From Rhodothermia bacterium (GTDB lineage Bacteria; Bacteroidota; Rhodothermia; Rhodothermales; JAAAOL01): 44,775 nt of DNA. The translations under genes and the position numbers were made by a program. The notes under the pieces were generated by a model, which saw only the letters and a program-made list of their open reading frames with translations, was not told where the DNA came from and did not search any database. This document shows positions 10,096 to 19,004 of this stretch, in pieces. Location of the stretch: assembly GCA_030428385.1 (NCBI GenBank), contig JAUIDY010000045.1:1-44775 (forward strand), given 5' to 3'. Positions within the stretch are counted from its first letter, which is position 1. Every line of letters starts with the position of its first letter.

Positions 10096-10842
10096 ATGCC
10101 TACGCTACACCTCCTCGGAACGGGCGGCGCGGTCTCTGATCCGCATCGCACCACCACCATGCTCACCTTCACCGACGGTCCTTCCACGCTAGTGATAGAC
10201 TGCGGCGGTGATGTGATACAACGTATGCTGGCTGCCAACATCGACCCGGCAACGCTCGAAGCGATGATTATTACCCACGAGCACCCGGACCATGTGAGCG
10301 GTTTCCCACTGTTTATGGAAAAAATCTGGCTGCATGGCCGCCGAGAACCGCTGCCTATTTATGGCATCGCTGCGGCGCTGGACCAGGCAAAGCGCTGTTT
10401 TGACACGTTTGACACTAGCCGCTGGACCGGGCTCCCCGAACGCGATTGGCGTGAGGTCGCCCACGAAGAAAACGCGACTGTAATGGACACCGAACGCTGG
10501 CGCATCACTGCCACACCCGGGAAACACAGTGTGCCTGTCGTTGGACTACGGGTGGAAAGCAAAACCACCGGAGGCGTTGTGGCTTACTCGTGCGACACCG
10601 AGCCCATTCCTGAAATGGCGTGCCACGCCCATCAAGCCGATATTCTCGTTCACGAAGCGAATGGGAAGGGGCCCGGCCACACCTCTATTCCGCAGGCGGC
10701 CGAAATTGCCGTGCAAGCCGAAGCAAAACGGCTCGTACTCGTCCATCTTTCCGCAGGCGACAAGTCTACCGCGCTGGAAGAAGCACAGGCAATTTTTCCC
10801 GCAACAGAGTTGGGCGAGGAACTGGTGACGTTGGCGTTTTAA
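10096..10842 (+). CDS. MBL-fold metallo-hydrolase (RNase Z/AtsA-like)
   Basis: The 248-residue protein opens with LHLLGTGGAVSDPHRTTT and has the zinc-binding motif ITHEHPDH (His61, His63, Asp65, His66), followed later by YSCDTEP, VHEANG and LVLVHLS, which supply the remaining metal ligands. This arrangement fits the RNase Z/arylsulfatase-like branch of the metallo-beta-lactamase fold. At 248 residues it is shorter than true tRNase Z and lacks a clear exosite arm, so tRNA 3' processing is doubtful; a phosphodiesterase or other hydrolase is as likely. The stop codon (10840-10842) directly abuts the stop of the convergent carA gene. Confidence 0.85.
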   Translation: MPTLHLLGTGGAVSDPHRTTTMLTFTDGPSTLVIDCGGDVIQRMLAANIDPATLEAMIITHEHPDHVSGFPLFMEKIWLHGRREPLPIYGIAAALDQAKRCFDTFDTSRWTGLPERDWREVAHEENATVMDTERWRITATPGKHSVPVVGLRVESKTTGGVVAYSCDTEPIPEMACHAHQADILVHEANGKGPGHTSIPQAAEIAVQAEAKRLVLVHLSAGDKSTALEEAQAIFPATELGEELVTLAF

Positions 10843-11988
10843 CTACGACACTGAAACCGTACGATCCGCTGCCACCGCCACGGCGTCTTTGCCTGCAATC
10901 ATCGCCAGGAAGGCGTCGAAAAGGTAGCGACTGTCGTGGGGGCCGGGCGAGGCTTCGGGGTGGTACTGCACGCTCATCCCCGCGAACTGCTTAAACCGTA
11001 GTCCTTCCACCGTCTGGTCGTTCAGGTTGCGGTGTGTCACTTCGGCTTCGTCGGCGGGGATGGCTTCGGGATCAACTGCAAAGCCATGGTTTTGCGTGGT
11101 CACTTCCACATGGCCGGTCTCCAGGTTTTTCACCGGATGGTTCGCGCCCCGGTGACCCACATACATTTTGTACACGCCAATGTCCCGTGCAAGTGCCATC
11201 AGTTGGTGCCCCAGGCAGATGCCAAAGAGCGGAAGCCCCGTAGCCACCGCCTCCTGTACCATCGCAATGGCATCGGGCATCGCGCGGGGGTCGCCAGGGC
11301 CGTTGGACAGAAATATTCCATCAGGATTCCACGCCATTACGTCCGTCAATGGTGTTGCGCCGGGGAAGACACGCACGGCACATCCGCGCTCTTTAAACAT
11401 GCGCAAGATGTTCAGCTTGCAGCCAAAATCGTAGACAGCAATCCGAGCCCCATCGCCCAAGGCATAATCGAACGCGGCGTCTGTTGTTACTCGCGAGGCT
11501 AATTCGAGCCCTTCCATCGAAGGCCACTGCTGCGCCTTGGCAACCAAACTGGCATCATCGAGGTCGACCGACGAAATGATGGCGTTCATCACCCCTTTGG
11601 CTCGGATATGGCGCACCAGCCGCCGCGTATCAACACCCGAGATACCCACCAGGCCGTTGGTTTCCATCCACGTCTCGAACGAGCTATCGGCCAAGGCATT
11701 CGAATACTGGTGGGAAAAGGCACGCACGACCAACCCAGCTACCATCGGCGAGCGGGCTTCCATGTCGGCATCGGTCGCTCCGTAATTGCCAATATGCGGA
11801 TAAGTCATCATCATGATCTGGCCGTGGTACGACGGGTCCGTCATGATCTCTTGATAGCCTGTCATGCTGGTGTTAAAACAAAGCTCGCCACCTACTTCAC
11901 CACGTTTCCCGACGGCAACGCCGGTTACGACAGTTCCATCGGCAAGAGCAAGTTTAGCGGCCTGAGGCGTAGATACAGCAGTGGTCAT
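10843..11988 (-). CDS. carA: Carbamoyl-phosphate synthase small subunit
   Basis: This 381-residue protein is the glutaminase subunit that passes ammonia to the large subunit CarB for carbamoyl phosphate, used in pyrimidine and arginine synthesis. The N-terminal domain has GELCFNTSMTGYQEIMTDPS; the class I amidotransferase domain has LSNGPGDP, the nucleophile Cys258 in FGICLGHQL, and His343/Glu345 in VQYHPEASPGP. The ATG at 11988 is preferred over the GTG one codon earlier. carB is not in the window. A terminator hairpin lies in the leader 50 bp upstream, which suggests attenuation. The 3' end abuts the convergent MBL gene without any spacer. Confidence 0.97.
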   Translation of the reverse strand: MTTAVSTPQAAKLALADGTVVTGVAVGKRGEVGGELCFNTSMTGYQEIMTDPSYHGQIMMMTYPHIGNYGATDADMEARSPMVAGLVVRAFSHQYSNALADSSFETWMETNGLVGISGVDTRRLVRHIRAKGVMNAIISSVDLDDASLVAKAQQWPSMEGLELASRVTTDAAFDYALGDGARIAVYDFGCKLNILRMFKERGCAVRVFPGATPLTDVMAWNPDGIFLSNGPGDPRAMPDAIAMVQEAVATGLPLFGICLGHQLMALARDIGVYKMYVGHRGANHPVKNLETGHVEVTTQNHGFAVDPEAIPADEAEVTHRNLNDQTVEGLRFKQFAGMSVQYHPEASPGPHDSRYLFDAFLAMIAGKDAVAVAADRTVSVS

Positions 11989-12036
11989 CACAAGCGGGGT
12001 GGTTTGAGATTTTGTTTACAACACACAGCCAGATAT

Positions 12037-12093
12037 AAAAAAACCCTCCCGAACCTTTCGGGAAGGCAACACATTAGGCGGCGGTACCTAATG
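12037..12093 (-). promoter_or_regulatory. Probable transcription attenuator in the carA leader
   Basis: Read on the minus strand there is first a perfect 7-bp hairpin, CATTAGG/CCTAATG with an 8-nt loop (12093-12072), then a 10-bp stem CCTTCCCGAA/TTCGGGAGGG with a 3-nt loop (12066-12044) and a T7 run (12043-12037). The second element is an intrinsic terminator. No minus-strand gene lies just upstream to be terminated, and carA begins about 50 bp downstream, so the natural reading is premature termination of carA transcripts. The sensing mechanism (nucleotide, leader translation or a PyrR-like protein) cannot be read from the sequence. Confidence 0.65.
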
Positions 12094-12164
12094 CAACGAA
12101 AGTCTTGAAGCGTCCCGTCACAATCACGTGGAAAGGGGCGGTTGGTAGCTGTGCGTTAACCGTC

Positions 12165-12197
12165 TAAAGATACCACACCAACCCGGTCAACCTCAAC
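12165..12197 (-). promoter_or_regulatory. carA: Candidate carA promoter
   Basis: On the minus strand GTTG (ending at 12194) is followed after 21 bp by TATCTTTA (12172-12165), close to the Bacteroidota consensus TTTG-N19/21-TAnnTTTG. The transcript would start near 12158, leaving a ~170-nt leader that contains both hairpins of the attenuator. The rest of the 11989-12393 gap holds no gene. Confidence 0.45.
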
Positions 12198-12393
12198 GGC
12201 CTTTCACCCCCCTTTTTCGCCAACTCGGCATATTGATTGCAACGATCTGTCCGTTTTCCAGTTATTTAGGCTGCCAAATGGGGCAAGGCTGTACAAAAAG
12301 CGACATTACAGATTCTAACGCCGCTTTTTACCCTGCCCCTTGCAGCTTCGAGACTCATCGTTTTTTCGTTTTTTTAGCCTCGTTTCTGAGCCT

Positions 12394-13080
12394 GTGCGCC
12401 GCACTACCCGCCATCGTTTCCAACTGATTTATGAGGTCCGGATCCAACTCGGCATCATCGCTGCATTGGTGCTCAGCCTTGGTTTGGTACACGGGTGGCC
12501 CACTCCTTCTGGCCCAGACGATGACCGGATCTATACCAGCCGCGTGCAGGATGCCATCAAAATTGAAGAAATCAAACCCACCCGTCAATCAAATCGACCG
12601 CCTCCGCCCCCACCGCCCCCCATTCCGGTGATCGTTCCCAACGACAACATTCTTGAAGAAATACCGCTCGATTTTAATGACACCTTTCTTCAATTGCCGG
12701 ACCTTGCCGACGCGCTCCCTCCGGATGATGCCGAACTGAATGTGCAAGCCACCGCCTTGGAACGGGTAGAAACTGCTGCGCGCCCCGTCCGCATCGTTGA
12801 GCCAGCCTACACGCGTGAAGCCCAGCGCCGCAAGGTACGCGCCGAAGTGGTGGTGGAAGTGCTTGTTGATGAACGGGGCCGCGTGGAAGAAAGCCGCATC
12901 GTTGAGCGGTTTATGCTTGGCAAAGACGACGACGATCCCAAACAGCCCGTAGCCGAACTTGGCTATGGCCTCGAAGAAGCTGCTACCGACGCTGCAGAGC
13001 GCTGGGTCTTCCGCCCCGCCCGTCAGAATGGCCGCCCGGTGCGTAGCTACACCACGGTGACGCTTGTTTTTGGAGTGTAG
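12394..13080 (+). CDS. TonB-family energy transducer
   Basis: The protein has one N-terminal transmembrane helix (QLGIIAALVLSLGLVHGW), a poly-proline stretch (eight Pro in a row) for the periplasmic span, an acidic linker, and a C-terminal TonB domain starting near RPVRIVEPAYTREAQRRKVR with VVVEVLVDERGRV and the final WVFRPARQNGRPVRSYTTVTLVFGV. It would couple the proton-motive force (with ExbB/ExbD, not seen here) to outer-membrane receptors. No ATG is in frame; GTG at 12394 gives 228 residues with a short cytoplasmic tail, while TTG at 12340 would add 18 residues. The GTG start is my preference, not proven. Confidence 0.88.
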   Translation: MRRTTRHRFQLIYEVRIQLGIIAALVLSLGLVHGWPTPSGPDDDRIYTSRVQDAIKIEEIKPTRQSNRPPPPPPPPIPVIVPNDNILEEIPLDFNDTFLQLPDLADALPPDDAELNVQATALERVETAARPVRIVEPAYTREAQRRKVRAEVVVEVLVDERGRVEESRIVERFMLGKDDDDPKQPVAELGYGLEEAATDAAERWVFRPARQNGRPVRSYTTVTLVFGV

Positions 13081-13184
13081 CAGGTTTGCGACTGCGAGTA
13101 TGTGCGTGTGGGCGCAGGAAAGCACCTCCAGATTGCACCGATCAATTTGAGAGCAGCTTTTCTCTCACTCCTCGTTTCTCCATT

Positions 13185-13379
13185 CTACAAATCTACCCAA
13201 CGGGCGTCTTCCACATCTTCCTGGCGGGCGGGTGTCGCAGACGGTGGTTCAAAGGGCGATGGTTGACGGGGCATTTGCGGCGGACCTTGTGGGCCTTGCA
13301 ACACCGCCGAAGCAAGGTTCATAACCGTTTTGCCGATGAAGTAAATCAAAAGGGCAAAAAGAAGCAGCTTTATAAACAT
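13185..13379 (-). CDS. Small membrane protein downstream of the deoxynucleoside kinase
   Basis: A 64-residue product begins with a single transmembrane helix (MFIKLLLFALLIYFIG) and continues with a Gly/Pro/Gln-rich cytosolic tail ending EDVEDARWVDL. It starts 21 bp after the deoxynucleoside kinase stop on the same strand, so it is the third gene of the folK operon. The layout resembles small DUF4834-type proteins of Bacteroidota, an impression from memory rather than a search. Its role is unknown; the acidic tail ending may be a protein contact. Confidence 0.6.
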   Translation of the reverse strand: MFIKLLLFALLIYFIGKTVMNLASAVLQGPQGPPQMPRQPSPFEPPSATPARQEDVEDARWVDL

Positions 13380-13400
13380 AGGACGTAGGTGTCCGTGTTG

Positions 13401-14084
13401 TCAGGAATCAAGAGCGGCTGATGGCGTTGGGTTGAAGTACGTCACCCCGCTATGGGTTACAGTGGCAATCTGCCGAACCAGTTCCTCAAACTCGGCAGGA
13501 TTTTTCACAAAATCGATGGCCACCGCATTAATGATCAGCAGCGGGCTTTTGGTGTAACGGTGGAAATAGTATGTGTAAGCCTCATGAACCGAGGTGATAT
13601 AGGCTGGGTCCATGTTAGTCTCATACGAACGCCCCCGCTGATGGATGTTTGCCATCAAACGCTCCGGGGACGATTGCAAATACACGACCAGATCAGGCTG
13701 AGGCGTGGCAGGCTCCATCAAGGCATACATGGTCTCGTAAAGCTGCAACTCATCACCTTGCAGGTTGAGGTGCGCGAATATGCGGTCTTTGTCGAAAGAA
13801 TAATCGGCCACGGTAACCTGATGAAAGAGGTCGCGTGCGAGCAGGGCTTTTTGCTGCTGAAACCGGCTAGCCAAAAAAGAAAGCTGCGTATGAAACGCCC
13901 AACGCTCCCGGTCAGCATAGAACTGGGCCAAAAAGGGGTTTTCGTCAAAGGCTTCCAGCACCAGTTGTCCCTGAAACCGTGCAGCAAGCATCCGCGCAAG
14001 CGTGGTTTTCCCTGCCCCAATAACCCCTTCGATGACCAGATAGCGCAGGTCGTCGCGCAGTTTATGGGTGTGGCTATCACTCAT
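13401..14084 (-). CDS. Deoxynucleoside kinase
   Basis: The 227-residue protein has the P-loop VIEGVIGAGKTTLA, the substrate-region Glu in LEAFDENPFL, VADYSFDKDRIFA (the DRS-like region), and the arginine-rich LID segment HQRGRSYE. These identify the deoxyadenosine/deoxycytidine/deoxyguanosine kinase family, which phosphorylates deoxynucleosides with ATP for salvage. Base preference cannot be decided. It lies 30 bp downstream of folK and 21 bp upstream of a small membrane protein gene in one operon; a folK-kinase pairing is, as far as I recall, common in this phylum. Confidence 0.92.
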   Translation of the reverse strand: MSDSHTHKLRDDLRYLVIEGVIGAGKTTLARMLAARFQGQLVLEAFDENPFLAQFYADRERWAFHTQLSFLASRFQQQKALLARDLFHQVTVADYSFDKDRIFAHLNLQGDELQLYETMYALMEPATPQPDLVVYLQSSPERLMANIHQRGRSYETNMDPAYITSVHEAYTYYFHRYTKSPLLIINAVAIDFVKNPAEFEELVRQIATVTHSGVTYFNPTPSAALDS

Positions 14085-18867: not shown

Positions 18868-19004
18868 GAGTTTGTCTGGAAAACGATAAATAAGGACAAT
18901 TCGACGACCGTGGACCCGTTGCGCAACACAAACGTCCCCCAAACCCCGACGTCTTACACCAACAGCCTCGGGAAAAGGATCATGCTCTGACGTAACGCCT
19001 GCCG

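Follow-up and report, generated by a model that had tools for sequence, protein, structure and literature searches.

In a Rhodothermia bacterium, carA, encoding the small subunit of carbamoyl-phosphate synthase, is preceded by an intrinsic terminator that is conserved in relatives and, in Rhodothermales, carries a carA-specific stem at which predicted leader ORFs recurrently end. On balance, we lean towards reading this leader as a translation-coupled attenuator resembling those of E. coli pyrBI and pyrE, with the supply of pyrimidine nucleotides as its most likely signal. The features concerned lie in the window, that is, the whole stretch of 44,775 nucleotides that was analysed, and are listed below.

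10843–11991, minus strand: carA, carbamoyl-phosphate synthase small subunit, 382 aa from GTG (Pfam CPSase_sm_chain and GATase).
12037–12067, minus strand: intrinsic terminator with stem GCCTTCCCGAA/TTCGGGAGGGT, a 3-nt loop and T7, identified by scan and fold, conserved in relatives with paired stem changes.
12127–12074, minus strand: putative leader ORF with a GTG start, 17 codons and a TAA stop, product MIVTGRFKTFVALGTAA*, its position matching that of relatives' ORFs.
12072–12093, minus strand: predicted hairpin of 7–9 bp, CATTAGG..CCTAATG, overlapping the end of the leader ORF, lineage-specific.
12164–12196, minus strand: candidate promoter TTG-N21-TATCTTTAG, Bacteroidota-like −33/−7, from a sequence match only.
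12340–13080, plus strand: divergent gene with a TonB C-terminal domain, start about 12340.

The terminator hairpin (12067–12043, minus strand) reads GCCTTCCCGAA-AGG-TTCGGGAGGGT and comprises 11 pairs, six of them G-C, followed by T7. It was predicted to fold stably on its own, and 12067–12037 was the sole terminator-like site scored in 10400–13600. A distance of 46 nt separates the end of the T tract, at 12037, from the carA GTG at 11991, which is followed in frame by a possible ATG start at 11988, and the TonB-domain gene upstream of carA runs divergently, so that no upstream gene on the minus strand needs the terminator. A sequence-only reading of this DNA, which had placed a terminator hairpin about 50 bp before carA and had seen no upstream minus-strand gene in need of it, was borne out on these two points. 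carA stands alone in 10096–11991, with a convergent metallo-beta-lactamase-fold gene ending at the carA stop; carB of the same genome lies on a different contig, C56, whose end truncates it, and in most relatives it lies directly 3' of carA.

The leader before the terminator is about 90 nt long. By inspection, the candidate promoter consists of TTG at 12196, a 21-nt spacer and TATCTTTAG at 12172–12164, and similar boxes also occur upstream of some relatives' leaders; the candidate was not picked by a sigma-70 scan. The perfect 7-bp hairpin CATTAGG/CCTAATG (12093–12072), which folding extended to roughly 9 pairs, is possibly a pause hairpin. The sequence-only reading had listed it beside the terminator stem as part of a likely attenuator. 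The hairpin itself is present, but no equivalent was generally conserved, as the 55 nt upstream of the terminator stem had no general structure in 83 relatives (mean z −0.33), which excluded it as a conserved switch element.

To define the conservation of the terminator, carA loci were gathered from Rhodothermales (102 after redundancy removal), and the 300 nt upstream of carA were searched on the coding strand, with the reverse strand and dinucleotide shuffles as controls. A terminator was found at 83 of the 102 loci, compared with 2 on the reverse strand and a mean of 0.3 in shuffles. The 5' arm was all-pyrimidine in 78 of these 83 terminators, most commonly CCTTCCC (51). The stem CCTTCCC..GGGRAGG showed two-sided pair changes, CG to TA and CG to GC, plus many G-U variants. 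The loops varied in length and sequence, and leaders of different families had no alignable structure in common.

The exact pattern CCTTCCCN3-10GGGRAGGYTTTTTT was then sought in 60 relatives' genomes. It occurred once per genome in 20 of them, and comparison of coordinates located all 20 sites at carA, which excluded a generic terminator. Elsewhere in the phylum the pattern was found in a few genomes, and the one compared (G128) did not have it at carA. The stem sequence, not its pairing alone, is conserved beyond what a plain terminator needs, which counts against the translation-coupled reading. As expected of an intrinsic-terminator attenuator, the terminator lies between a candidate promoter and the first codon, and is conserved before the same gene.

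Several loci departed from this arrangement. The carA terminator was decayed in the L013-type lineages L012 (e.g. GGCCTTTCTGAATTTCGATAGGATCCTTTTGAGG), L024 and L025, compared with the intact one in L013, an apparent loss of the attenuator. In genus g15 and near relatives (L009, L019, L029, L031 and L039), carA had no terminator, and a conserved promoter-like TTGAGACCGGGCGCAARRATGCCTAATTT was located near the start codon. One genome (G144, contig C1) contained two carA copies, near 19000 and 3742000, with an identical leader terminator; they lie close to opposite ends of a single contig and are possibly an assembly-end duplication.

We also analyzed families f16–f21 of the same class, which we infer to be Balneolales. 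A leader terminator was detected by scan at 16 of 20 carA loci and was visible by eye in most others. Its stem, AATCCGRC..GTCGGATT, differs from that of Rhodothermales; this pattern was present in 51 genomes of f16–f21 at 52 sites, all at carA, and was absent from Rhodothermales. Since both groups have a terminator at carA with different stems, its position is conserved class-wide and its stem sequence is not. Ahead of the sister-family terminator, the sequence is rich in pyrimidines and poor in G (44% T, 26% C, 5% G), and the leader ORF of this sister order gave no codon signal. Sister-order leaders (L288–L296, L300, L393–L412) also had a recurring hairpin before the terminator, e.g. CATCAACTACG..CGTAGATTGATG with the loop often ACCCAAAAATGGAGGTC, which matched nothing in Rfam; an ATG roughly 31 nt ahead of the stem recurs together with it.

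In the window, 7 nt separate the TAA stop of the leader ORF (12127–12074) from the stem of the terminator. ORFs of at least 8 codons, starting with ATG, GTG or TTG (a permissive choice) and with the stop ending at −12 to +3 of the stem, were present in 45 of the 83 Rhodothermales leaders, compared with 12.9 ± 2.9 in shuffles (maximum 21). Any stop codon within 12 nt of the stem was observed in 53 of 83, against 26.2 ± 4.1. By the same criterion 38 leaders had no ORF ending at the stem, and some ORFs read through it. Codon change in the ORF frame was biased toward synonymous in clades A, B, D, E2, F and I; the overall syn/nonsyn ratio was 0.32 in this frame versus 0.15 and 0.19 in the others, from protein-guided alignments that favour the predicted ORF frame. 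Synonymous changes in the ORF frame and the other two numbered 26 versus 7 and 3 in g4, 56 versus 16 and 12 in g14, and 33 versus 19 and 11 in g31, whereas in clades E_f12 and G the codon signal was absent from the predicted frame. These tests apply within relatives' clades, the window's own ORF being without a close relative. The predicted ORFs thus reach or overlap the terminator, as in leaders of the pyrBI/pyrE type. An ORF ending at the terminator, overlooked in the sequence-only reading, is a recurrent companion feature and, as judged from these alignments and counts, points to a translation-coupled mechanism.

From the observed terminator, its conservation and carA-specificity and the ORFs ending there, we infer both that leader translation may control the terminator and what the signal would be. 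Transcription would start about 90 nt upstream of the terminator, and the polymerase would cross the short leader ORF. If the ribosome were close behind and at the leader stop, it would cover the 5' arm (CCTTCCC), the hairpin could not form and carA would be transcribed; if the polymerase were ahead of the ribosome, the hairpin would form and transcription would stop. As at E. coli pyrBI and pyrE, a shortage of pyrimidine nucleotides would hold the polymerase back while it transcribes the pyrimidine-rich leader. When a stop codon was relocated in E. coli so that it lay 5 bp ahead of a terminator, termination fell from ~90% to <10% (PMC4824070), and a near-terminator stop nearly abolishes termination when translation is coupled (PMC4824070, PMC5021804). 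The anatomy matches this stop-near-terminator/pyrBI group, and we therefore favour a ribosome that halts at the leader stop and itself masks the 5' arm. Two features speak for a pyrimidine signal: both the leader and the 5' arm are rich in pyrimidines, and 43 nt separate the stem from the only Arg codon of the window's leader ORF. With regard to the U-rich pause of the pyrBI/pyrE type, the upstream tract is pyrimidine-rich but mostly C in Rhodothermales, and U-rich in the sister families.

carA feeds arginine synthesis too, and we gave some weight to an unlikely but serious alternative, an arginine-sensing leader-peptide attenuator in which scarce arginine would stall the ribosome at Arg codons near the terminator and thereby mask the 5' arm. 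Several leaders have Arg-rich ends (RRFRGG* in genus g4, PRRR*, RLRR(S/F)R and IRFRI*), and Arg was the commonest residue in the last 7 leader codons (14.9%). However, its share in open frames (0.111) was no higher than in closed ones (0.118), which leaves Arg-codon control unsupported as a general rule. The majority of clade A and three members of clade D had no Arg, and the Arg codon of clade C was replaced by Leu or Gln. In the window's leader ORF, the only Arg codon (12112–12110) ends too far before the stem for cover by a stalled ribosome. One frame across the sister-family stem reads IRRGFRSR, but the ORF frame is not fixed relative to this stem and shifts, so that this is probably a by-product of stem conservation. 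Leader terminators occur at argG in many genomes and, by contrast, none of this kind at pyrB, pyrE or pyrR; this does not favour a general pyrimidine circuit, and the point for arginine is not dismissible. From the sequence, pyrimidine supply suits the window anatomy better than arginine does, and arginine may be the signal in g4 and f12, clades whose leaders have Arg-rich ends.

The argG leader terminators of Rhodothermales were detected at 7 of 30 and 13 of 19 loci (L203, L206, L208, L209, L215, L220, L224, L366–L375, L381, L382 and L384). Their stems were mostly GCGCTGATCC..GGATCAGCGC or GCGCCGATCC..GGATCGGCGC; translated in one of its frames, the 5' arm often gave K/Q-R-R-S or ..QR*, but this frame frequently lacked a start codon.

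Control by a protein, PyrR or another RNA-binding regulator that would recognise the stem or leader and govern terminator formation, appears improbable. It would suit a stem whose sequence is conserved and carA-specific, and PyrR is encoded in the same genome as carA, next to and upstream of pyrB, and in 57 of 60 relatives. However, the attenuator persists (L044, L004) in family f11, in which PyrR was not found (G011 and G022, one a complete genome), and PyrR is therefore not required; conversely, PyrR is encoded in genus g15, where carA lacks a terminator. The variable loops also argue against such recognition. No PyrR element was detected by Rfam at carA or pyrR, in agreement with the sequence-only reading, which had seen no known PyrR-binding motif. 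PyrR control was thus unsupported. We assign a similarly low probability to the idea that the two unrelated carA stems, CCTTCCC/GGGRAGG in Rhodothermales and AATCCGAC/GTCGGATT in the sister families, are recognition elements for an undescribed regulator, or are read with the ribosome in an undescribed way, sensing the demand for carbamoyl phosphate in the synthesis of both arginine and pyrimidines.

That the terminator has no part in carA regulation and instead ends the transcript of an upstream gene or a separate small RNA is very improbable: the terminated leader would itself be a short RNA of roughly 110–120 nt, but the upstream gene in the window is divergent, the longest upstream ORF was on the opposite strand in 54 of 81 relatives by a rough ORF criterion, and the terminator stays with carA across families. 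A metabolite-binding riboswitch is hardly to be expected either, although Polynucleobacter has a riboswitch candidate upstream of carA (PMC8632094), since no conserved fold lies upstream of the terminator, no structure could be aligned between the leaders of different families, and Rfam 15 gave no gathering-score match in carA leaders (best sub-threshold 13.6 of 56 bits) and nothing at carA, pyrR or sister leaders, and hence no Rfam riboswitch.

The translation-coupled reading offers a class-wide regulatory hypothesis for the enzyme at the branch point of arginine and pyrimidine synthesis, in bacteria in which attenuation is hardly described; a 2010 survey of premature terminators across genomes placed the leader peptides known until then in Proteobacteria and Actinobacteria alone, and added Firmicutes (PMC2965389). 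A search of the open-access literature for carA or carAB leader attenuation gave the Polynucleobacter carA motif as the only described carA leader RNA. The Rhodothermales carA attenuator was not found described there, and the kind of system is itself already known. Of the "likely novel attenuator" of the sequence-only reading, the conserved, carA-specific leader terminator thus stands, and the second hairpin as a conserved part does not. The natural series of leaders, with the stop at the stem, read-through or loss, provides a test bed for direct masking of a terminator by the ribosome.

The E. coli pyrE attenuator presumably has the same translation-coupled likeness to the carA leader as that of pyrBI. 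Like pyrBI, whose terminator lies inside the leader ORF (PMC4824070), the carA leader has a strong intrinsic terminator before a pyrimidine-pathway gene and an ORF ending at or crossing it, and proximity of the ribosome would give read-through (PMC4824070, PMC5021804). Unlike in pyrBI and pyrE, the gene is carA with a conserved, carA-specific stem, the leader ORFs are shorter and unrelated in sequence, and Rhodothermales have no clear U-rich pause tract; the likeness to these UTP-sensitive systems is one of anatomy. Bacillus-type PyrR attenuators share the leader terminator before a pyrimidine gene and a PyrR encoded in the genome, and differ in that the carA leaders have no detected PyrR element, with an attenuator lacking PyrR in f11 and PyrR lacking the attenuator in g15. 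The Polynucleobacter motif SRC-12-1 of Betaproteobacteria is likewise a conserved RNA upstream of carA, but is an extended hairpin beside the ribosome-binding site with a proposed translational action (PMC8632094), whereas Rhodothermales have an intrinsic terminator and a leader ORF. The trp and his attenuators also combine a leader ORF with a terminator; unlike them, the carA leaders had no conserved run of a single amino acid and no antiterminator was found in them, and their stop abuts the stem, whereas in classical amino-acid attenuators the terminator is >20 bp from the stop codon (PMC4824070).
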